Shown: positions 5,321 through 61,871 of the stretch, one piece after another
Position numbering within the stretch: position 1 is the stretch's first letter
Layout of the letters: each line of letters opens with the position of its first letter
NCBI GenBank assembly: GCA_963580285.1
Contig: OY757010.1
Location: 151,982,714 to 152,046,713 of the forward strand
Length of the DNA: 64,000 nucleotides
Direction of reading: 5' to 3'
Source: Lucinisca nassula
Lineage: Eukaryota > Mollusca > Bivalvia > Lucinida > Lucinidae
Made by a program: the position numbers and the translations under genes
The notes under the pieces: model-generated
Told to the model about the DNA's origin: nothing
The model's input: the letters and a program-made list of their open reading frames with translations, nothing else
Databases searched by the model: none

Positions 5321-6347
5321 CTATACCATGCGGGCTTTGAACTCCTCTGCAGTTTTGGCATTTACCACAGAGGAGGGAAGACTATTCCACTGAGGAATAG
5401 TTCTAGGGAAGAAATAATTCTTCAGGGCATCACTATAGGCCTGGTACCTCCGATATTGACTGTTGTTTAATTTTGATGCCCTTGTGTGAGTTGAAGTAGT
5501 CACAGGGGTCAAGTATTTATCTTTATTAAGAGACACGGTGTCAGAGTGTATCTTATAAAAGAAGGTTAAAGAGGACTGCTCGCGACGGGCCTCCACCGAT
5601 GGCCACTCCAGCTCATCGAGCATTTCACCAACACTACTTCTGTTCCGCCATCGCCCGCAGGTCCATCGGTCAGCCGTCCTCTAAACCTTCTCAACCTGTT
5701 CAACTGAGTTTTAACATGGGGATGCCAAACGGGTGATGCATTCTCGAGTTGAGGTCGAACCAAGGTTTTGTATGCAACGTCCTTTGTCTGCCTAGGAGCA
5801 AAAGCCAAATTGCTTCTAAGAAACCCTAATGTCGTAGTTGCCTTAGATGTAATCGCATAAATATGTTGACCCCAATCAAGATTATCAGTGATGGTGATAC
5901 CAAGATATTTAGCGGATTGGACATGTTCCAATGTATGCTGATGTAGTAAGTAGTTGAATTTAATCTGCTGTCTGGAGGGTGCCGTGACACCCTCATTTAA
6001 TGACATTTGGCCACATTGAACTTCATTTGCCAATCGGCCTCCCAACGTGCTAGGCTATCCAGGCCATCTTGTAAGATAAGGCAGTCAGAAGAAGTATATA
6101 TATTCCTATACAAAACACAATCATCAGCAAACAAGCAAACAGATGACCTGATATTATCAGGAAGATCTTTAATAAATATCAAAAAAAGGACCGATCCAAG
6201 TACCGAACCTTGTGGGACACCAGACAAAACAGGGACTGGATCCGACGCTTGATAATCAAGTACAACTTGTTGTGTGCGTCCAGAGAACCATGAGCTAACC
6301 CACTTATGTGTGGATCCTCTTATCCCATAATGATCCAAGTTGTACAA
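5321..6347 (-). pseudogene. LINE reverse transcriptase, 5'-truncated and frameshifted
   Basis: Read on the minus strand, the first segment (6347 to ~5997) holds RT block SGVPQGSVLG and the catalytic FADDCVLY box. The next (6045 to ~5566) has the post-catalytic YLGITITDNLDW and LVRPQLENASPVW motifs. The last (5623 to 5321) has NYFFPRTIPQWNSLP and a TAG stop. The order fits the C-terminal half of a Jockey/CR1-like non-LTR polymerase. At least two frameshifts separate the segments, and the endonuclease and N-terminal RT are missing. A related LINE piece lies directly upstream on the same strand (6360-6985). Confidence 0.9.
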
Positions 6348-6359
6348 TAGCCTCCTCCT

Positions 6360-6985
6360 TAAGGAGAAGCATGAGCCACCAGACTAACAGCACTGCTAAA
6401 CTGCGCCTACAACATAGGCAGGTAGAGCATTCCAGTGTAAAATAGTCCTGGGAAAGGTGTACTTGTAGTAGTCTATGAGGGTGTAAATCTGTCTGTATGC
6501 AAGGGGGTGATTGTGGCCTGAATGGTCTAGTATTGAGGATGAGATCATAAGTGATCTTATACATCATGGCGAGACGGTTATTAATGCGGCGTTGTTCAAG
6601 GGGGCGCCAATTTAGGTCCGTCATCATAGCTGTAAAACTTGAAGTGTAGCTAAAGTCATGTGTTGCCCACCTGGCAGCCCTTTGTTGGACTGCTTTCACT
6701 TTGTATATGCCAGTGGCAGTGTGGGGATACCATGCAGTGAACGCATACTCTAGTTGCGGCCTGACAAGACTCTTATATGCAACTGATTCCAGGTCCTTAT
6801 TATGGACCCGAATGTTTCTTTTAAAAAATCCAAGGGTCTGATTTGCTTTTGTAGTTATGTTGTCAATGCGGGGGCTCCTGTTTAGATCATCAGAGATAGT
6901 TACCCCAAGGTAATTAGCTGTTTCTGGTGCCATGCAATAGGTACACAGTTGGGATGGGGTTCTTACGTCGGGTAACATGAAGGAC
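6360..6985 (-). pseudogene. Second LINE RT C-terminal fragment
   Basis: Minus-strand translation shows NYLGVTISDDLNRSPRI, AYKSLVRPQLEYAFTAWYP and KVKAVQQRAARWATHDFSY, the post-RT region of a non-LTR polymerase. It is paralogous to 5321-6347 rather than a continuation, because the YLGITI-LVRPQLE region is repeated. It has neither the catalytic FADD box nor the upstream RT blocks. Its 3' end meets the 5' truncation of the first fragment at about 6348-6360. Confidence 0.85.
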
Positions 6986-7029
6986 CTGGCATTTAGAAGA
7001 ATTAAAGTTTATGTCCTACATCTTTTTTT

Positions 7030-23340: not shown

Positions 23341-23493
23341 CCATGCTTATAAACCCTATTGGTTTCATTGGGCGGCAGGGCTTGAGATGTCATTTCATCT
23401 CAATGTCGGGTAAAAGTCCCACAAAAATTGGAAGCAACGTCTCCAAAATGACCTTTACAATGTTGACGGGGACGTTAAACATCAAATCAAACA
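23341..23493 (-). mobile_element. R repeat, 3' half
   Basis: From CCATGCTTATAAACCCTATT to GACGTTAAACATCAAATC. 5'-truncated. Confidence 0.88.
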
Positions 23494-23781
23494 ACTGCGG
23501 AATTTCGCTGTAAATGCATTTTTGTCTGTACCTATAAATAAACGTTACCTTTTTCACAGATGTGATAGTCACGTGGGCAATCGCAGTGAAACGTCTTGAT
23601 CATTTGGTGACAATGAGTCAATTGATAACCAAACAATCGGCTAAAGAAACGAAACATACCGGAAAATCCTCCGATAGTATATGTCACCAATACCACCATG
23701 AGAGATGGATTATCATACAGGTTTTGTTGTACCTTCCTTCTATTCGAAGGAATTATCTTCAGTATTTTATATGCTGTTTAA

Positions 23782-26231
23782 CATAATGACCGGTATGAAG
23801 ATCCCTTTAGTTTTGACGGTATCAAAACCTTCTTAACCCACATGAGTATCACAAATACATTTAAAATATCAATATCAACCATTAGGTTACACTCTGCTTC
23901 TTCTGTACGGATTCCCCATTCTATTAAGAACTTTAATACTATGTTGCCTTCGGTATTGGTTAGACCCTTAAATTTGTCTTCTGTAACTTCAGTTATTCTC
24001 AATGGAGCAGGCAGTACCAATGTTTTTGGGAGTATTCTTCGTATAAGACTATCTCCTCTCAAATCGCCCATCCTTCGAAAATATACTAATCCGTGGAAAA
24101 GAAGTGGAATGTATCCTAGTATTTCTAGGTGCAATGCCAAGAGGTGCAGATGTTGTTCGCATTTAAGCACTGCGTCTATCGTTACTTCATCTGTAAACGG
24201 TAGACGCTTCTCTGTAGTTAACATGTCTGATTTGACATGACAGTCTACAGATTTAATTTATCTAATTACTTGACGTGCTGCAAACTGAAATATGCAGTAC
24301 GTCGGTCAAACTAACCGCATGCTTAAAACTAGATTGAACGAGCATTATGGAAAAATGAGTAAGCCTAAGAAAACTGACACTTTCTTGTACCGTCACTTTC
24401 GACGTACAGGTCATTCTGTAAATAACATTGTTACACAACCAGTGGAAAAAATTTATTACGATGCAAATTCTACATCTAGATTCAAAATAATCAAAAGACA
24501 TGAAGCTGAACTGAAATGGATTAAATTTTTACAGACCCCTTTTCGACTGGGATTTAATGACAACATTTATCATGAGGGTAATATTTCCAGAATGCCGGAC
24601 TTTGATATTTTCTCACTCCTCGATTGTCGAAAACGCAGAACTAGATCTCACGGCACCAGGAAAAATGGTAATTTTAAACGTAAATCACGTGCGTTTAAAC
24701 GAAACAATACTAGACTGAAGTGACTGTCAATGATATTATTAAATCATGGACGCCACTCTATGCTTTCATTTTTAGGTTCATTACCCGTTTCTGTCTTACG
24801 TCTTCTGGACACCGAGGCGAATAAATTCTACGATAGTTCTCATCAGTTATATGATGCTGCTCTCTTAACTAGAGGCTATACTCAGCATGCTCTCCGTCCT
24901 TACATTGATTCTGAAATTAATCATAAACGCCATTTCTTCAAAATATCCTTCATTAATAAGGGTATGGATTTTATAGATTTGCCCAGTATCTTCCGTGAGA
25001 GATCGGTGCTTTCTTCCTTTCCTGCTTATTTTCAAAATACTGAAACACCTATAATTTGCTATAAATATAACAAACCTGTTAGATCTATCATTTTTAATTT
25101 CAATAAACTTGTTTCAGATCTTGATATTGATACTAATACTCCTGATTCATGTGATTGTAAAAATTCAAAGTATTGTTATCCTGCTGCTGGTCATGTAATT
25201 ACTGGCAATTTGAAAATTATTCCTGATTCGAGGATAAGGAATATAATTTCTAAAGGACCGAAATATCGGTTTCCTTCTAAAATTGATTTCAGTAAATTTG
25301 GAGATGAAATCGCTGCTTCCTTGAATGAATTCGGTAATCGATGGTGTAAGCGAGAGTATGTTGAGCATAAAGCCCTTAAGGACTGGAAACTTAGCATTTT
25401 AAAACTAGTGAATAAACGCATTTGTTTCTATTCTCAAAATACTAACTTATTACCTCCTAAGCCTAAGACGTCTTTACGTCATCTTAAACTAGGTATTCTA
25501 GAATTGCATAAGAAGTTTGTTTTGGCCCCTGCAGACAAGGCCGCTAACAACGTCGTCGTTGTGTGACGGCTCCACTATGTTAACACGCTTAAGCAGGAGC
25601 TTGGTGGTACTAAGGCCTATGAACTTCAGCCTTTAGCTGAAGAGAGAGCTATAGTAGATAAACATGTTTGTCTTTCAGCCACCAAGTTTGCTGCGTGTGT
25701 TAACGAAGGCCAAGACAAGCTTCCTACGCTATACTGGTTACCAAAACTTCATAAAAGACCTTACAAAGCACGGTTTATTGCAAATTCTAGCTCTTGCACT
25801 ACCACTGAAATTTCTAAATTATTAACTTCCTGTCTTACTGCTATTAAAACGCATGTAATTAAATATTGTGATAAAGTCTTTGAAAGATCAGGAAGAAATC
25901 TGTTTTGGTATATAAAAAATTCGAATGAGGTTTTAAATATATTGAAATCCAGACATTTCCGTGCTTCTAGTCTGTCTACTTACGATTTTTCCACTCTTTA
26001 CACTACACTTCCTCATAATCTTATGAAAGAAAAGCTTAATGATTTAATTGAATGGGCTTTTCACAGAGAAGATTCTCTCTATCTTGCATGTAATGTCAGA
26101 AATGCATTTTTCACTTCTAAAGAGCATAAGAATTATACACTTTGGTCATGTCAGAAAGTGTGTGATGCCCTCACCTTTCTTCTTGACAATATTTATATTA
26201 GATTCGGTACTAAGTTATTTAGACAAATTGT
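23782..26231 (+). CDS. Naiad polyprotein, endonuclease and first part of RT (five in-frame TGA)
   Basis: The frame is open from 23782 (after a TAA at 23779) to the MITE at 26232 with no TAA or TAG in ~816 codons. Its only stops are TGA at 24238, 24271, 24286, 24721 and 25564. The first ATG is 23842. Landmarks: RCNAKRCRCC (~24130), the IYLIT...MQYVGQT endonuclease core (24256-24312), NEHY and HFRRTGHS histidines, a candidate catalytic Glu in RHEAELKWI (~24500), and CDC (25150). Next come APADKAANNVVVV (~25525-25563), LPTLYWLPKLHKRPYKARFI (~25720-25775) and DFSTLYTTLP (~25985-26015), a PLE RT block with a conserved Asp. If TGA is read as selenocysteine this part is intact; otherwise it is a pseudogene. 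Antisense frames at 23778-24224 are shadows. Confidence 0.85.
24238..24288 (+). other. Three in-frame TGA codons at expected Cys sites of the endonuclease
   Basis: TGA occurs at 24238-24240, 24271-24273 and 24286-24288, in the context DLT-x-QSTDLIYLIT-x-RAAN-x-NMQYVGQT. PLE endonucleases normally have Cys at the position before the IYLIT-like strand, directly after it, and just before N.QYVG. The last two would be the Cys pair of the CCHH motif. Selenocysteine recoding is the favoured reading and three nonsense mutations the alternative. Confidence 0.75.
24721..24723 (+). other. In-frame TGA between endonuclease and linker
   Basis: Context is TRLK-x-LSMILLNHG. The frame is unchanged across it. 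I do not know which residue the family has here, so the selenocysteine case rests on the other four sites. Confidence 0.55.
25564..25566 (+). other. In-frame TGA at the Cys after the KAANNVVVV motif
   Basis: PLE RTs usually read K-A-x-N-N-V-V-V-V-C here. The codon is TGA and the frame continues RLHYVNTLKQEL without other lesions. This site fits selenocysteine replacing cysteine. Confidence 0.7.
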
Positions 26232-26591
26232 AGTGTGGCGGATAAGTGGGAATTTTTACCAAAATAGTTCAGTTTGTGATACAAGCATGAAATTTCTACC
26301 AAATCATTATCGTTTATAGTGAGGTAGAATAAGAAAGTTGGCCACCGTAAATTTTTTGTCCATTTTGAAGTTGGCCACCAAGTTTTTTAATTGCACCCCA
26401 TTTCAACGCTATTTATTTTATAAACGCTACACCATGTGCTAACTATTTTTCAAAACGGCGGCCATCTTGAAAAAGTCAAAATTTTTCGTGGCCAACTTTT
26501 TTTTCATTTACTACACATACAAATTAGGCTTCATCCCAAATTCCATGCTTGTATCACAAAATGAACTATTCTGCCACTTATCCGCCACACT
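26232..26591. mobile_element. 360-bp MITE with long TIRs inside the Naiad RT, 5-bp TSD
   Basis: Termini are AGTGTGGCGGATAAGTGG and its exact complement. Imperfect complementarity extends ~125 bp inward (TTTGTGATACAAGCATG on both arms). ATTGT is duplicated at 26227-26231 and 26592-26596. Conceptual removal of the element plus one TSD joins RQIV to GIPMGTNC in frame, confirming the boundaries. The interior has repeated AAGTTGGCCAC. No coding capacity; superfamily undetermined. Confidence 0.94.
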
Positions 26592-27427
26592 ATTGTGGGT
26601 ATTCCGATGGGTACTAATTGCGCACCTCTTGTGGCTGATCTGTTCTTGTATTGTTATGAAAGAGACTTCAGTCGCTTTCCATTGATAACCAATCTGAAAT
26701 TATTGAAGCTTTTAGCTCCACTTCTAGATATTTAGATGATTTATTAAATATTGATAATACCTATTTTGATGGTTTGATCAGTCATATTTACCCCCCAGAA
26801 CTTCAGTTAAATAAAGCAAATTCTTCTGATACCGAAGCCCCGTTTTTGGATTTACATCTATCAATTGTAGATGGATTTGTTTCGTGCAAAATTTATGATA
26901 AACGCGATGACTTTGATTTTGAGATTGTAAATTTTCCTTTTTTGGATGGTGATGTTCCTCGTGCGCCATCCTATGGCGTTTATATTTCGCAATTAATTCG
27001 ATTTGCTAGAGTGTGTAGTCATGTAACTGACTTCAACACTCGTAATAAATTATTAACAGCTAAACTCCTTAATCAGGGTTATCGGTACCATAAACTACGC
27101 AAAGCCTTTTCAAAATTTTATAGACGTCATTCTGATTTAATTTCAAAATTCAATGTTGGACTTAAATCTCTTCTGCAACAAGGTCTATCGGAACCCGAAT
27201 TTTATGGTGACTTAGTATATAAATTCAGAAAAATATATTACCGCAATGACTTCAGCACCCAATTTCGTAAAATCATTCTTCGATATAAAAAGATTGGGTA
27301 CACCATGGATGTTATACGACAGACTGCATGCATGGTATTTAACCCAATCACGGTTGGCAACTTTGCTTCCCTCTTTAATTGCACGCCGGTGGGTCAGGCC
27401 TCAGATTCTATGACGGCTCCAACGTAA
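26592..27427 (+). pseudogene. Naiad RT catalytic and C-terminal part
   Basis: It resumes at GIPMGTNCAPLVADLFLYCYERDF (the RT block before the active site). A one-base loss (or two-base gain) between about 26660 and 26684 then shifts the frame. The shifted frame reads DNQSEIIEAFSSTSRYLDDL, the YLDD catalytic box (~26726-26740). It continues through HIYPPELQLNKANSS, FLDLHLSI, YKKIGYTMDVIRQTACMV and ends ASDSMTAPT with TAA at 27425-27427, a natural PLE terminus. No TGA occurs in this part. The single frameshift and the MITE make this copy non-functional. Confidence 0.88.
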
Positions 27428-28005
27428 AGGCTTATTGAGTATTAGAGAGATCTAATTCAAGGTAATGTTGGTTGGTGCCTGATGCTCTGTCTCTGGTCGG
27501 GCCCATCGGAGTCTAACTGTTGGTTTTCTTTTGCTCCAGCATTTCTCTGGTTTCTTGCTGTCGAGTCATCACCGTTGTCTCACCTCTGTGGTTCTTTGAT
27601 TTTTGTGTTCACGGAAATGTTGCACTGATGAGTTAGGAGGCCTTCATGCGGACTGAACAAATTATTTGTCTAAATCGCGACGGAAGTAAGGGCGAGGATT
27701 GTGGCCACGTAAAATCGATTTAAGCCTCCCAGTGGAAATCATTCCACTGACCGTTCCAAGGCGGTTCTTCTATGGCGGTTTATTTATGGTGTTGTTTGTT
27801 ACTTGCTGTGTGTATCACTTGTGCCTTTTTATTTTGGATGGCCATATGGCCATTTCGTGGGAAAGTAACTGTCCTTATGGCCTTCCTTTGTTTAGGTTTC
27901 CATTATGGTCTGGTCGCTTAATGTTTGTGTTTCTTTCCCTTTGGTGTCTTTGATGGGTGGGGTAAGTTAATTGTATCGATTCCTGATCTTTGTTTTACTT
28001 CTACT
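27428..28005 (+). other. Naiad 3' untranslated region
   Basis: Non-coding. The distal part (27775-28000) recurs alone at 8805-8990, 45055-45235 and 52924-53145, so it belongs to the element. I looked for a selenocysteine insertion (SECIS) stem-loop: an ATGA at 27628-27631 is followed by TGA at 27654, but the 22-nt spacing is too short for a normal helix. None is called. Confidence 0.65.
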
Positions 28006-28008
28006 TTG

Positions 28009-28298
28009 TTTGATTTGTTTGATTTTAGGTATAAAGTCCCCGTCAATACTGTATAGGTCATTTTGGCGACGTTGCTTCCAATTTTGTGGTACTTTCACCT
28101 AACATTTGAGATGAAATGACATCTCAAGCCCTGTCGCACAATGAAACCAATAGGACGGTCCGACTCGCACCGCTTTGCTTGGGCAGGTTTAGATCCTCTA
28201 GGCGGTTTACCAGTACTCGTGTGCGGTCGGATTTCAGCTCTGCGTGGAAACATCATGCAGCCCATCTATTTCTTCAAGCCCCGATGGGCGGTACAGCA
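28009..28298 (+). mobile_element. R repeat
   Basis: Starts TTGATTTGTTTGATTTTAGG and ends CAAGCCCCGATGGGCGG. It lacks the TTTATAAGCATGG segment present in other copies and lies directly after the Naiad 3' end. Confidence 0.88.
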
Positions 28299-29568: not shown

Positions 29569-30881
29569 CGAGGACTGTTCAAATATGAATGCAACTAAGC
29601 CCATAAAAATGATTCCGTGATAGATTTCGATGAAAAATTTATTTGGTCCCCTCAAAGTATTCCCCTTTAACAGATATACAAACTTTCAGTCTTCTGATCC
29701 AATCATTGAATGCATTTTGGTAGTCTTTTCGAGGTATACTATGAAGGCACTGGAATATTGCAGAACCGAGGTGTTTGCGCTGTACAAATTTTCGACCAGA
29801 AAGGTATTTTTTCAGCCACGGGAACAAAAAAAGTCACACGGGGCAAGGTCAGGGGAATACGTGGGGTGAGGGAGTTCAACAACCTTTTCCTGCTTCAGAT
29901 AGTCTTGCACAATGAACGCCTTGTGCGATGACGCATTGTCATGTAGCAATCTGACATTGGCCAAACCAGTTGCTGGTCTTCGTTCTTTGAAATATTTCTT
30001 CAATTTTCGAAGAACTTTATTCTTGTAAAACTTCGCATTTACAGATTTGCCTTTAGGCACAGTAACCTGAATAGCAGGGCCCTGATTTGAAAAGAATATG
30101 ACATACATTACCTTCTTGACGCTCTTGGTCCGCTTTGCAATGCATAATCTTTTGCAATACTTTGTTGCCAATATTTTGTTCTGAATCTTTCGTTTTGGCT
30201 CAAAAAAGTGAACCCATGTCTCGTCACCTGTGACGACATTAGCGAAAGACCGTGCATTGTAATTTGGAAACTTTTTAAGCAACGTCTTGGCGCACTGAAC
30301 GCGTGTCTTTTTCTGCTCATCTGTCAACAGATGGGGAATCCATCTAGCACAGATCTTTCTCATTTTCACATCCCGTTTCAGAATTGCATGAGCTGCTCAT
30401 AATGAGATGCCAACCATACTAGCTATTTGCCTGGTGGTGTATCGTGCATCGGTAGCAACTATTTCTTTCACTCTAGCAACCAACTTGGCAGATGTTGGTC
30501 TTCTGTTGAGCCTAGCCCACAACTGAATTTCTTACACCAACGAAAAACTTTCGGAAAAGACATTTCATTTTGCTCATAAACCGAACATATTTCATCAAAA
30601 ATGTCTTTGCACCGTATACCAAGAATACAACGATTCTTAATATAGGACCGTATTTCAACGGCGTACTCTGACCTTCTTCCAACCATGTTTTGTATTAGTA
30701 TACAAGAGTAGACAGTGTTTATCGAACGATATACGTGGCTAAAGTGTACGGATTTTAACAGGTTTGGTATCAATGTATAGGTAAAATGTTTTTCTACGTT
30801 GTGATATTTATTTCCAGGCGATTTTCGCATTAGTGCAACACGCAAAACGTTCTACTTGCATTCATATTTGAACAGTCCCCG
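29569..30881 (-). mobile_element. Mariner element, copy 1 (inactive)
   Basis: 1313 bp between TA dinucleotides (29567-29568, 30882-30883). Terminal repeats are CGAGGACTGTTCAAATATGA and, on the other side, CGGGGACTGTTCAAATATGA. It encodes one degenerate transposase on the minus strand. A second copy is at 60525-61871. Confidence 0.95.
29639..30686 (-). pseudogene. Mariner transposase, D,D34D type, degenerate
   Basis: The start is the ATG giving VGRRSEYAVEIRSYIKNR (helix-turn-helix region). Catalytic landmarks follow: TGDETWVHF (first Asp), LLHDNASSH (second Asp) and YSPDLAPCDFF (third Asp), ending VKGEYFEGTK and TAA. Compared with the second copy, this one has lost ~28 nt after GLGSTED, has TGA for the Gly codon in ISLG, and lacks one base in the T-run after CDFF. 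All three catalytic Asp codons are intact, so the inactivation is by frame, not active site. Confidence 0.93.
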
Positions 30882-33040: not shown

Positions 33041-33689
33041 ATACGATATAAGACATGGAAGAGCCTGAGCGACAGACTCAAGAAGTGGTCGCTAATTTCC
33101 TCCATGATAGATGCGTAAGGAATCAATTATCTTGCCATCGCTCAACAATGACAGCGATATCGTCACCTATTTTCTATAAGGCTTCCGTTTCTTTAGACTT
33201 AAACATCTGAGATATAGTGTCGGAAGTCGCACATTTGTTTTTTCCATTTATGATACATTTTACTTGTCTGATTCTTGCTCAGGGCACGTAGGGCATGGCA
33301 TTGGATAGATATCCAGAGCTTGCGGTAGATGACTTTGAAAACGGACTTCTCTTATCAGCTTTTATTTCGGTCGGAAGCTGATAGCTGGAAAGTATGCTAT
33401 TAACGTGCTTGGAAATAAAAGACAAGACACAGAGTAACAGCGGGTTAGGAAAAGTGAATTCGTGACTACAATTACGTTTTTTACAATCGTTAATGGGCGC
33501 GTTGGAATTCAATTATTTAATAGTTCTAACAGGAACGATCCATTTGTCATTACCTTTTTTTCTATTTCAAGGAGAACGTTTTTCAAAAACTCCTAAACGG
33601 AAGCAAAGTATTTTGAATAACAAATTGTGAAAAGTGCGTGGTTGAATGCTTAAATTGCCCAAATGCAATTTTGAAATGATTTTGACTGT
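33041..33689. other. Upstream region of the GPCR; no other gene
   Basis: No repeat family was recognised here, in contrast to the surrounding DNA. That fits, but does not prove, conserved 5' flank. Confidence 0.35.
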
Positions 33690-33698
33690 TTATAAAAG
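33690..33698 (+). promoter_or_regulatory. TATA-like motif just upstream of the GPCR ATG
   Basis: TTATAAAAG lies ~25-30 bp before the ATG at 33722. If used, the start site would fall at or inside the ATG, so it is more likely chance or serves a downstream start codon. Confidence 0.2.
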
Positions 33699-33721
33699 TT
33701 AAAAAAATCATATTGTTTCAA

Positions 33722-35062
33722 ATGGCGCAAAACTATTCAGAATGGAAGCATTTTAACTTTTCTGTTGATAAACTCAATGAAGATTTGTTTGAGGCCCTTT
33801 TTCCAGTAACAGTTTTTATAGGGTTAGAGACAGTTTTCGGATTTATTGGAAATATTTCAATTTTGTGCGTTTACATAAAATTATACTTACACTGTAACTT
33901 TCGGTACTTTGTGTTGTGTTTAGCTATCTACGATTTAACGAGCTGTGTGTTGACGTTGCCTGCTGAAATTTACTCCGAATTTTATTGGTTTGATTTCAGA
34001 TGTAATTGGTTCTGTAAAGCTAAGTCATATTTTAACGTGTTTACAGTGTGGGGATCGGCTTTTACACTACTTCTTCTTGCGTTTGACCGTTACAGAAAAG
34101 TTTGCCAACCTCTTGATTGGCAAATCCAGCCCTCGTCTGCCTTGAAGTTTTGTGGCCTCGGCATGGTACTCTCATCGCTAGTATCTATACCAGCTTCCGT
34201 TTTCTGGGGGATACAGACATACGTATACACTGTAGGCAACGTAAGTGTTACTATTTCTATATGTGAGAAGTCAGGGCAATATGCAGACGCCATTCACCCG
34301 TTTATTTACATTGCAAGCGTCTATGTTTTACCGATCGGAATTATGATGGCAGCCATTTTTGTTTGGAATATTTTGACAGCAAGACAAATGTTCTTCAAAT
34401 TAAATGAAATGCGTGCAGGTTCATCTGCCAGTATACTTGATAAAAAGACTAGTTTTATCAGGAACGCTTCGAATTCTAGTTCTGTGTCCATGCGTAGTTT
34501 GATCTCCTCCTGCATTCAGAAGTTAACGTGTTTAAAAACTTCATTTCATCACAAGATTCGACTGCCGCGCAGAAACAGCATGATGTCATTAACTTCATTT
34601 ACGCTGACAGAACTACCCAGCAGAGAAAAGTTTTACATCACAACAGACTTTGGAGAAAAGGAGAACTCAGAACAAGGCACTAACGAGGTCGGTTTTTGTA
34701 ATGAACGTCAGTCTAGACACAAGACTTCAGCGAGTTACAATACAGTGGACAAATTCTTTTCGCGGGAAATAAAATCTGAGGGAACGCATCTTCGTCGCAA
34801 GCGAAAGACAATGATAATGCTGATATTAACGTCAGTGTTTATGTTTACAATGGCGCTGTACATCATTTTAATTTCACTGGTCGCGGAGAAGCATGGGATT
34901 TTCAAACAAATGTCGAATTCTGAAAAGGCGGTCTACTTCTTTTTCCTGCGGATTTATTTCATAAACAGTGTGATAAACCCCGTTTTATATGGTTTAATGG
35001 ATCCTAGATTCAGAACCGGGCTGAAAAGGGTTTTCTGCTCTTGTCATGCCAGCAAGCGGTAA
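33722..35062 (+). CDS. Class A (rhodopsin-like) G protein-coupled receptor, orphan, intronless
   Basis: 446 codons, single exon, TAA at 35060-35062. The frame is open slightly upstream, but 33722 is the first ATG. Seven hydrophobic segments: TM1 ~29-52 (GN at 43-44), TM2 ~62-82 (LAIYD, Asp71), TM3 ~98-121, TM4 ~141-160, TM5 ~194-216 (Pro204), TM6 ~364-387 and TM7 ~403-424. An N-glycosylation site NFS is at 12. Cys98 and Cys181 probably form the extracellular disulfide. DRY is at 122-124 and NPVLY at 419-423, with Cys439/441 possible palmitoylation sites. The third intracellular loop is long (~145 residues) and Ser/Arg-rich. Odd: the TM6 CWxP toggle is replaced (TMAL). It resembles peptide/amine receptors in layout, but I cannot name a ligand. 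It should signal through G proteins at the plasma membrane. Confidence 0.93.
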   Translation: MAQNYSEWKHFNFSVDKLNEDLFEALFPVTVFIGLETVFGFIGNISILCVYIKLYLHCNFRYFVLCLAIYDLTSCVLTLPAEIYSEFYWFDFRCNWFCKAKSYFNVFTVWGSAFTLLLLAFDRYRKVCQPLDWQIQPSSALKFCGLGMVLSSLVSIPASVFWGIQTYVYTVGNVSVTISICEKSGQYADAIHPFIYIASVYVLPIGIMMAAIFVWNILTARQMFFKLNEMRAGSSASILDKKTSFIRNASNSSSVSMRSLISSCIQKLTCLKTSFHHKIRLPRRNSMMSLTSFTLTELPSREKFYITTDFGEKENSEQGTNEVGFCNERQSRHKTSASYNTVDKFFSREIKSEGTHLRRKRKTMIMLILTSVFMFTMALYIILISLVAEKHGIFKQMSNSEKAVYFFFLRIYFINSVINPVLYGLMDPRFRTGLKRVFCSCHASKR

Positions 35063-60262: not shown

Positions 60263-60524
60263 GTTTATTGATATTCTCATACTGATTTTAAACTACAGTA
60301 TTTAAAACATTCATTATGCAATGAAAAATGGGACTGAAAATTTAAGTAGAACAATTATTTTTCTTTCATCCAATGTTAAATTTGAGAAAATCAAATAAAA
60401 ACAAATTGGGTCATTTTGAGGTTGTTTTAATTTTTTCGTGATTTTCGGAGCTGGAAAAATGCCAGTACAGGTAAAATCCATTGATTTGACATGAGGCATG
60501 GTGATCCCAATTGTCCCGTATGTA
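60263..60524. other. No gene recognised
   Basis: AT-rich spacer before the mariner. Confidence 0.4.
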
Positions 60525-61871
60525 CCAGGACTGTTCAATATGAATGCAAGTAGAACGTTTACTCATGCACTAATGCGAAAATCACCTGGAAATAAATATC
60601 ACAGCGTAGAAAAACATTTTACCTATACATTGATACCAAACCTGTTAAAATCCGTCCACTTTAGCCATGTATATCGTTCGTTAAACACTGTCTACTCTTG
60701 TATACTAATACAAAACATGGTTCGAAGAAGGTCAGAGTACGCTGTTGAAATACGGTCCTATATTAAGAATCGTATTCTTGGTATACGGTGCAAAGACATT
60801 TTTGATGAAATATGTTCGGTTTATGGGCATAATGAAATGTCTTTTCCGACAGTTTTTCGTTGGTGTAAGAAATTCAGCTGTGGGCTAGGCTCAAAAGAAG
60901 ATGCACCACATGATCGTCGGCCGAAAAGAGCAACATCTGCCAAGATGGTTGATAGAGTGAAAGAAATAGTTGCTACCGATGCACGATACACCCTAGGCAA
61001 ATAGCTAGTATGGTTGGCATCTCATTAGGAGCAGCTCATACAATTCTGAAACGGGATTTGAAAATGAGAAAGATCTGTGCTAGATGGATTCCCCATCTGT
61101 TGACAGATGAGCAGAAAAAGACACGCATTCAGTGCGCCACGAAGTTGCTTAAAAAGTTTCCAAATTACAATGCACGATCTTTCGCTAATGTCGTCACAGG
61201 TGACGAGACATGGGTTCACTTTTTTGAGCCAAAACGAAAGATTCAGAACAAAATATGGGCAACAAAGTATTGCAAAAGGCCATGCATTGCAAAGCGGACC
61301 ATGAGCGTCAAGAAGGTAATGTATGCCATATTCTTTTCAAATCAGGGCCCTGCTATTCAGGTTGCTGTGCCTAAAAGCAAATCCGTAAATGCGAAGTTTT
61401 ACAAGAATAAAGTTCTTCGAAAATTGAAGAAATATTTCAAAGAACGAAGACCCGCAACTGGTTTGGCCAATGTCAGATTGCTACATTACAATGCGTCATC
61501 GCACAAGGCGTTCATTGTGCAAGACTATCTGAAGCAGGAAAAGGTTGTTGAACTTCCTCACCCCCCCCCCCTCCCCCCGTATTCCCCTGACCTTGCCCTG
61601 TGTGACTTGTTTTTGTTCCTGCGGCTGAAAAAATACCTTTCTGGTCGAAAATCTGTACAGCGCAAACACCTCGGTTCTGCAATATTCCAGTGCCTTCATA
61701 GTATACCTCGAAAAGACTGCCAAAATGCATTCAATGATTGGATCAGAAGACTGAAAGTTTGTATATCTGTTAAAGGGGAATACTTTGAGGGGACAAAATA
61801 AATTTTTCATCGAAATCTATCACGGACTCATTTTTATGTGCTTAGTTGCATTCATATTTGAACAGTCCTCG
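60525..61871 (+). mobile_element. Mariner element, copy 2 (inactive)
   Basis: 1347 bp between TA at 60523-60524 and 61872-61873. Terminal repeats CCAGGACTGTTCAATATGAA and TTCATATTTGAACAGTCCTC. The left TIR has lost an A. It inserted next to or within a LINE 3' fragment (61872-62021). Confidence 0.95.
60717..61801 (+). pseudogene. Mariner transposase with mutated second catalytic Asp
   Basis: Starts MVRRRSEYAVEIRSYIKNRI and runs to FEGTK/TAA. A one-base deletion at CACCCTAGG (~60990-60998, CACCACCAGG in the other copy) ends the first frame at 61003. A second frame continues MVGISLGAAHTILKRDLK. TGDETWVHF is intact. The second catalytic site reads LLHYNASSH (Tyr for Asp). A C-run expansion adds Pro before YSPDLALCD. 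It keeps the APHDRRPKRATSAK segment deleted in copy 1. Confidence 0.93.

Follow-up and report, generated by a model that had tools for sequence, protein, structure and literature searches.

A multi-copy Naiad-type Penelope-like element with four putative selenocysteine codons in a bivalve, represented in the window by a dead copy

The window, a stretch of 64,000 nucleotides of the Lucinisca nassula genome, holds a Naiad-type Penelope-like element that is very probably a dead copy of a multi-copy family encoding selenocysteine (Sec) in this bivalve; Sec insertion, protein function and transposition are what we infer from the sequences. The earlier note on this DNA had read the element as a Naiad with a multi-Sec protein. 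Our analysis supports that reading with corrections: the family has four UGA sites, one of them is not a Cys site, and the window copy is dead.

Structure and damage of the window copy

Interruption by TGA alone was borne out. The forward frame from 23782 to 26319 contains five TGA (24238, 24271, 24286, 24721 and 25564) and neither TAA nor TAG. The earlier note had taken all five for a feature of the element. We compared them with a sibling set of twenty stretches and then five more, counting codons in blastn pieces of at least 200 nt from L009-L033, with L001-L008 excluded as duplicates. The TGA at 24238, 24271, 24721 and 25564 (S1, S2, S4 and S5) proved common to the family, but the one at 24286 is a private mutation, the siblings having TGT or TGC there. 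Across the four shared sites TGA is kept in 106 of 110 copy-by-site cells, and the four departures are TGT, TGT, TAA and TTA. The single TAA (at S2) and TTA (at S4) both come from one decayed copy, L013:7-1789, which is 80% identical and reads TGT at S1, TAA at S2, TTA at S4 and TGA at S5. Taken literally, the claim that at least four TGA occupy Cys positions is correct (24238, 24271, 24286 and 25564). Of these, however, 24286 belongs to the window copy alone, and with 24721 falling outside the Cys sites, three of the four family TGA stand in for a conserved Cys.

Ordinary decay, in which a pseudogene becomes enriched in TGA through CpG deamination, agrees with a window copy that is dead and carries one private TGA. 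As the origin of the four shared TGA it is ruled out by the sibling copies, which have them in common, and as an account of the element we give it next to no weight. Elsewhere in frame, the stops of these sibling pieces are mostly TAA (15 TAA, 7 TAG and 4 TGA in 21,673 codon cells) and fall at scattered codons, one of them hit twice. CGA is moreover an unlikely source of the shared TGA: copies without TGA at S1 read TGT there, and Cys is the residue of relatives at S1, S2 and S5. The excess of TGA over chance that the earlier note had suspected holds for the four shared stops, all of which are TGA (p 0.0006 against the spectrum of the other in-frame stops; p 0.007 against the two other forward frames).

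Table 1. Features of the Naiad-type element in the window (positions are those of the window).
Feature	Position	Strand	Remarks
Naiad-type Penelope-like element body, inserted element included	23722..28008	+	extent common to siblings (blastn)
ORF, first part, from the first in-frame ATG to the insertion	23842..26231	+	open if TGA is read; siblings continue without the insertion
S1, putative Sec UGA	24238..24240	+	just before the GIY (LIYLIT) motif; siblings TGA 26/28, TGT 2/28
S2, putative Sec UGA	24271..24273	+	between the GIY and YVG motifs; siblings TGA 27/28, TAA 1
Private TGA at a conserved Cys codon	24286..24288	+	siblings TGT 26, TGC 1, partly deleted 1, TGA 0 (n=28)
S4, putative Sec UGA, non-Cys site	24721..24723	+	siblings TGA 28/29, TTA 1
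CxC motif, Cys-Asp-Cys (TGT GAT TGT)	25150..25158	+	first Cys is Trp or the protein end in many near relatives
S5, putative Sec UGA	25564..25566	+	after ADKAANNVVVV, in the N-terminal part of the RT; siblings TGA 25/25
MITE-like inverted-repeat insertion, 360 bp, in the RT region	26232..26591	.	inverted arms; ATTGT on both sides (26227-26596 overall)
ORF, second part	26592..27427	+	4-nt deletion at 26670; RT motif YLDD at 26729-26740; TAA stop at 27425
SECIS-like element	27402-27489	+	AUGA 27410-27413, 12-nt arm, AAA 27426-27428, UGAU 27480-27483; present in aligned siblings
3' end, pseudo-LTR-like	27689..28008	+	several siblings have it again upstream of their ORF, e.g. L021:1006-1324 ahead of a body at 1570

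The window copy is dead and its whole protein cannot be made, because the ORF carries both the 360-bp insertion and a private 4-nt deletion. In siblings spanning the junction (L021, L015 and L028, for example) 26231 is followed directly by 26592, the two sides overlapping by 5 nt, and all 23 siblings compared have four extra bases at 26670. The TAA at 27425, present in 33 of 34 siblings, ends the ORF beyond the coordinates that the earlier note had given for it (23782-26231).

Inverted repeats flank the window copy on both sides (23355-23494 and 28015-28154, 89-96% complementary), and the same flanking repeat sequence lies beside several siblings (L018, L019 and L024); the Naiad possibly inserted into or beside another repeat. 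Elsewhere in the window there is an intronless rhodopsin-type GPCR-like ORF of 458 codons (33686-35062, forward strand), likely a host gene. Its nearest relative is 71% identical, PF00001 is found in its relatives, and the named proteins among the 120 listed relatives are all from bivalves (Mercenaria, Ruditapes, Mya, Mactra, Sinanodonta and Potamilus). Judging by eye from translations, we take 29812-30396 (reverse strand) and 60495-61801 (forward strand) to be remnants of mariner-like transposase ORFs and 5566-7008 (reverse strand) to hold remnants of a LINE-type reverse transcriptase.

Family copies in the genome and coding constraint

A search of the 2.93-Gb genome with a 401-base query gave 832 first-look candidates, and the 40 scored among them included 39 non-window copies that are 97-98% identical. 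A genome search with the relative P0024, in which 50 of 70,143 candidates were scored, listed 55 rows. Eighteen of these are full-length rows of the family (38-39% identity to P0024, query positions 45/46-896) and together hold 70 TGA, 1 TAG and no TAA in frame: fifteen have four TGA only, two have three TGA only, and one has four TGA and one TAG. Sequence was examined for five of the 18; the remaining 13 were placed in the family on their identity and pattern of stops. The frames of the five have 1,021-1,119 open codons, with TGA only at S1, S2, S4 and S5 and a TAA end, and two of them have TGT at S1; the ORF of L048 measures 1,074 codons counted from the first ATG. Scattered TAA and TAG, which the earlier note had expected of a family without Sec, are thus not seen in the full-length family rows. 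The remaining 37 rows are Naiad-like as well (46-61% identity to P0024; several are pieces of one copy, and two were examined as sequence), but differ in that their stops are a mixture of 28 TGA, 25 TAG and 42 TAA. Comparison of the two stop spectra gave a Fisher p of 2e-22, a value that is overstated, as rows are related by descent.

More diverged copies came from a subfamily search in which 40 of 5,400 candidates were scored and six stretches were examined. Over the stretch that holds these sites, the subfamily shares ~85-87% identity with the window, and it has TGA at S5 in six of six copies and at S4 in five of five; the sole copy covering S1 and S2 has TGT at the former and TGA at the latter. 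TGA is also found at S5 in L055. We considered L054, a Naiad-like row with four TGA, as a second Sec lineage and rejected it: its frame is degenerate and its TGA are not at S1, S2, S4 and S5. Head-to-tail copies with a spacing of 4,151 bases occur at C3:351916-362752 and C12:3640296-3646981, which suggests tandem arrays.

TGA can be inherited from a master copy, and conservation among 97% identical siblings alone proves little. The genome also has open-frame Cys-type Naiad-like copies, such as L052, and these could mobilise in trans a non-autonomous family whose UGA codons simply terminate translation. We regard such a family as improbable, and less likely than the decoding of UGA as Sec. The TGA at S4 and S5 persist in the 85-87% identical subfamily, the 18 full-length frames are free of scattered TAA and TAG (no TAA and one TAG), protein identity to the Cys-type elements is just 35-37%, and variants located after the UGA codons lean synonymous. 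Taking as shared those variants present in at least 2 of 86 young pieces, we counted 26 synonymous and 26 nonsynonymous changes downstream of all UGAs, compared with 9 and 37 in a pseudo-frame of the 3' UTR (p 0.003, the variants being not fully independent). Before S1 there are 6 synonymous and 2 nonsynonymous shared variants; between UGAs the synonymous excess is weak or absent (3/10 in 24289-24720 and 8/16 in 24724-25563). The counts downstream of all UGAs are a moderate signal of coding constraint there.

Residues in relatives, the SECIS-like element and the host machinery

We compared sibling L048 with 146 relatives listed from two protein searches (40 proteins, and 120 listed of 168). 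The distant relatives, a set of 12 proteins below 45% identity that includes two with a C-terminal endonuclease, have Cys at S1 in 10 of 10, at S2 in 11 of 11 and at S5 in 10 of 10; in an earlier alignment one of the two C-terminal-endonuclease relatives had Asn at S5. The nearer relatives (at least 45% identity) that align at S1 all have Trp there (5/5: 2/2 at 45-60% and 3/3 at 60% or above). At S2 there are one Cys, one Trp and one Lys at 45-60% identity, and Trp in 3/3 at 60% or above. At S5, 45 of the 51 proteins at 45-60% identity end right before the site and one has Cys, and the 83 proteins at 60% or above show Trp in 24, Cys in 12, Leu in one and an end right before the site in three; predicted proteins that stop there add up to 48 of the 146. 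The first Cys of the CxC motif is kept in 44 proteins at 45-60% identity (Trp in 3, Arg in 1, a gap in 1), and at 60% or above the position is Trp in 31, other residues in 5 and a gap in 1, with 20 proteins ending right before it. S4 is Asp in 62 of the 94 aligned relatives of at least 45% identity (Cys in 5, gap in 2).

The simplest reading of these patterns is that the Trp residues and the protein ends in relatives represent TGA codons, called as a stop in one set of predictions and probably translated as Trp in another by a gene call with code 4. Taken at face value, Trp at S1, S2, S5 and the first CxC Cys of near database relatives would suit a UGA read as Trp, either because A-to-I editing turns it into UGG or because a near-cognate suppressor decodes it. 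Other relatives end exactly at these codons (48 at S5 and 20 at CxC) or have Cys (12 at S5), and in the relatives that carry Trp at these codons it is also more frequent at unrelated columns (26 of 13,798 versus 11 of 14,079), a surplus that would be expected of a code-4 gene call. A reading as Trp, whether by editing or suppression, also leaves the SECIS-like element described below unexplained; we hold it to be very improbable, and less likely than Sec.

The earlier note had proposed to look for a SECIS in 27428-28005. A SECIS-like element is indeed present, but its site lies over the ORF end and not only in that interval: the last residues of the protein are encoded in its 5' arm, and its apical AAA consists of the AA of the UAA stop and the next base. 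The AUGA, 12-nt arm, AAA and UGAU correspond to the canonical parts of a SECIS. The Rfam model SECIS_1 matches 27400-27491 of the window with 24.1 bits (E 0.29), which is below the gathering score of 35. Among nine sibling loci it gives 14 matches in eight (23.7-25.5 bits, E 1.3-4.1) and none in L010, and it scores L043 at 20.8; the gathering score was reached in none of the 12 loci scanned. With a part descriptor, which was written after the candidate had been seen, the candidate comes out ahead of every other match in the 64-kb window, whichever the strand (-13.1 kcal/mol, followed by -10.5 on the reverse and -7.4 on the forward strand), and 0.1 such matches are expected per strand from 20 Markov sequences.

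Pairing over 19 distinct rows is kept in 97.4% of the cells of the upper stem and 92.1% of those of the lower stem. One stem pair varies between C-G, U-G and U-A, and sliding the partners drops pairing to 31-42%. We found no excess of covariation in the 19 rows, the two-sided measures being reached by 87 to 160 of 500 shuffles, and the folding energy of six copies was not better than that of shuffles. In five pieces less than 93% identical to the window, the core and arms have 203 of 220 positions identical, the upstream coding sequence 624 of 700 and the downstream 3' UTR 1,086 of 1,279, as plain counts with no statistical test. The lengths of the aligned regions are about 69, 88 and 100 nt.

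The host genome contains components of Sec decoding. A tRNA-Sec model gave 31 matches, nine of them over the cut-off. The two strong ones score 80 and 77.4 bits, and ARAGORN calls each a tRNA-Sec with TCA. The weaker matches were not counted, because the model also matches in all 14 control genomes (over the cut-off in 5). They include clusters of 41-50 bits at C1:147.7 Mb, C9:84.0-84.4 Mb and C15:129-132 Mb, which are perhaps tRNA-Ser genes or pseudogenes. SelenoP-like exons are represented by three SelP_N matches at C5:82.79-82.80 Mb.

Proposed mechanism and relation to known elements

We propose that intact copies would have one ORF that starts at the first ATG, runs for ~1,074 codons and is translated through four UGA, each of which would be decoded as selenocysteine by the host tRNA-Sec machinery. 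One SECIS, to which the end of the ORF, its UAA and the first part of the 3' UTR all contribute, would direct the insertion of all four Sec. Three of these would stand for conserved Cys, a pair of them next to the GIY motif and one in the RT part, and the fourth would occupy a site where relatives mostly have Asp. The resulting GIY-YIG plus RT protein may copy the element through target-primed reverse transcription, and a SECIS at the 3' end would be retained in new copies primed from the 3' end. We favour the idea that, where the host decodes UGA well, exchange between Cys and Sec is near-neutral, because the set of Sec sites seems to vary from lineage to lineage and takes in a non-Cys site.

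Naiads have an N-terminal GIY-YIG domain, a CxC motif between endonuclease (EN) and RT, a telomerase-like RT and pseudo-LTRs or a tandem arrangement, and they are not known to carry a hammerhead ribozyme. GIY-YIG followed by RVT_1 was found in all eight relatives scanned, some below the Pfam cut-offs, and the family shares this order by alignment; Pfam domains were not detected in the window frame or in two sibling frames. The CxC motif lies between EN and RT in both the window (25150-25158) and L048. The predicted structure of the relative P0025 (pLDDT 72.9, pTM 0.60) has telomerases as its 15 best PDB matches, with low TM-scores of 0.22-0.31 by query. No hammerhead ribozyme is among the Rfam matches of the window stretch or of the nine sibling loci. 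Domain order, CxC, the 3' ends found upstream, the 4,151-base spacing and the lack of a hammerhead match fit Naiads; the telomerase matches, with their low TM-scores, may do so too.

The Cys-type Naiad-like elements (P0024-P0026 and L052), at 35-37% identity, likewise have GIY-YIG followed by RT and the CxC, but they differ from the family in having Cys and not UGA at S2 and S5, and also at S1 in P0024-P0026. Canonical Penelope-like elements (P0039 and P0040) have both domains and Cys at S1 and S2; unlike in the family, their GIY-YIG is C-terminal. Selenoprotein P resembles the family in having several UGA in one ORF, but it is a host gene with its SECIS elements in the 3' UTR.

Spider and clam Naiads reportedly evolved, independently, selenoproteins with several Sec. 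The family is like them in its Naiad type, its bivalve host (as in clams) and its several in-frame UGA as putative Sec, a likeness in general features, and it perhaps belongs to the clam Sec-Naiad lineage that Craig, Yushenova, Rodriguez and Arkhipova (2021, Mol Biol Evol) are reported to have described. Multi-Sec Naiads having by that account been reported already, the family would be a further example and not a new kind of element. In the open-licence literature searched we found no paper on Sec-Naiads, nor a UGA at an Asp site or a SECIS over the stop codon, which does not show the latter two to be unpublished.

More tentatively, an element that carries its own SECIS may treat UGA as an ordinary sense codon. 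UGA could then become fixed at a former Asp-type site, and Sec sites could turn over between lineages (S1, S2, S4 and S5 in this family, to which near relatives probably add the first CxC Cys). The recoding signal would be fused with the end of the ORF, so that terminator and signal travel as a unit in every 3'-primed copy, and transposition would depend on the selenium supply of the host.

Sec-dependent mobile elements are easily misannotated as shredded pseudogenes, as illustrated by the 48 of 146 listed relatives that end right before S5 and the 20 that end before the first CxC Cys. The family has many young copies and a diverged subfamily, shares its genome with Cys-type cousins and carries a SECIS-like element that is compact, and so offers a system for testing how UGA recoding spreads. 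It also suits asking if Sec sites turn over neutrally and if selenium limits transposition.
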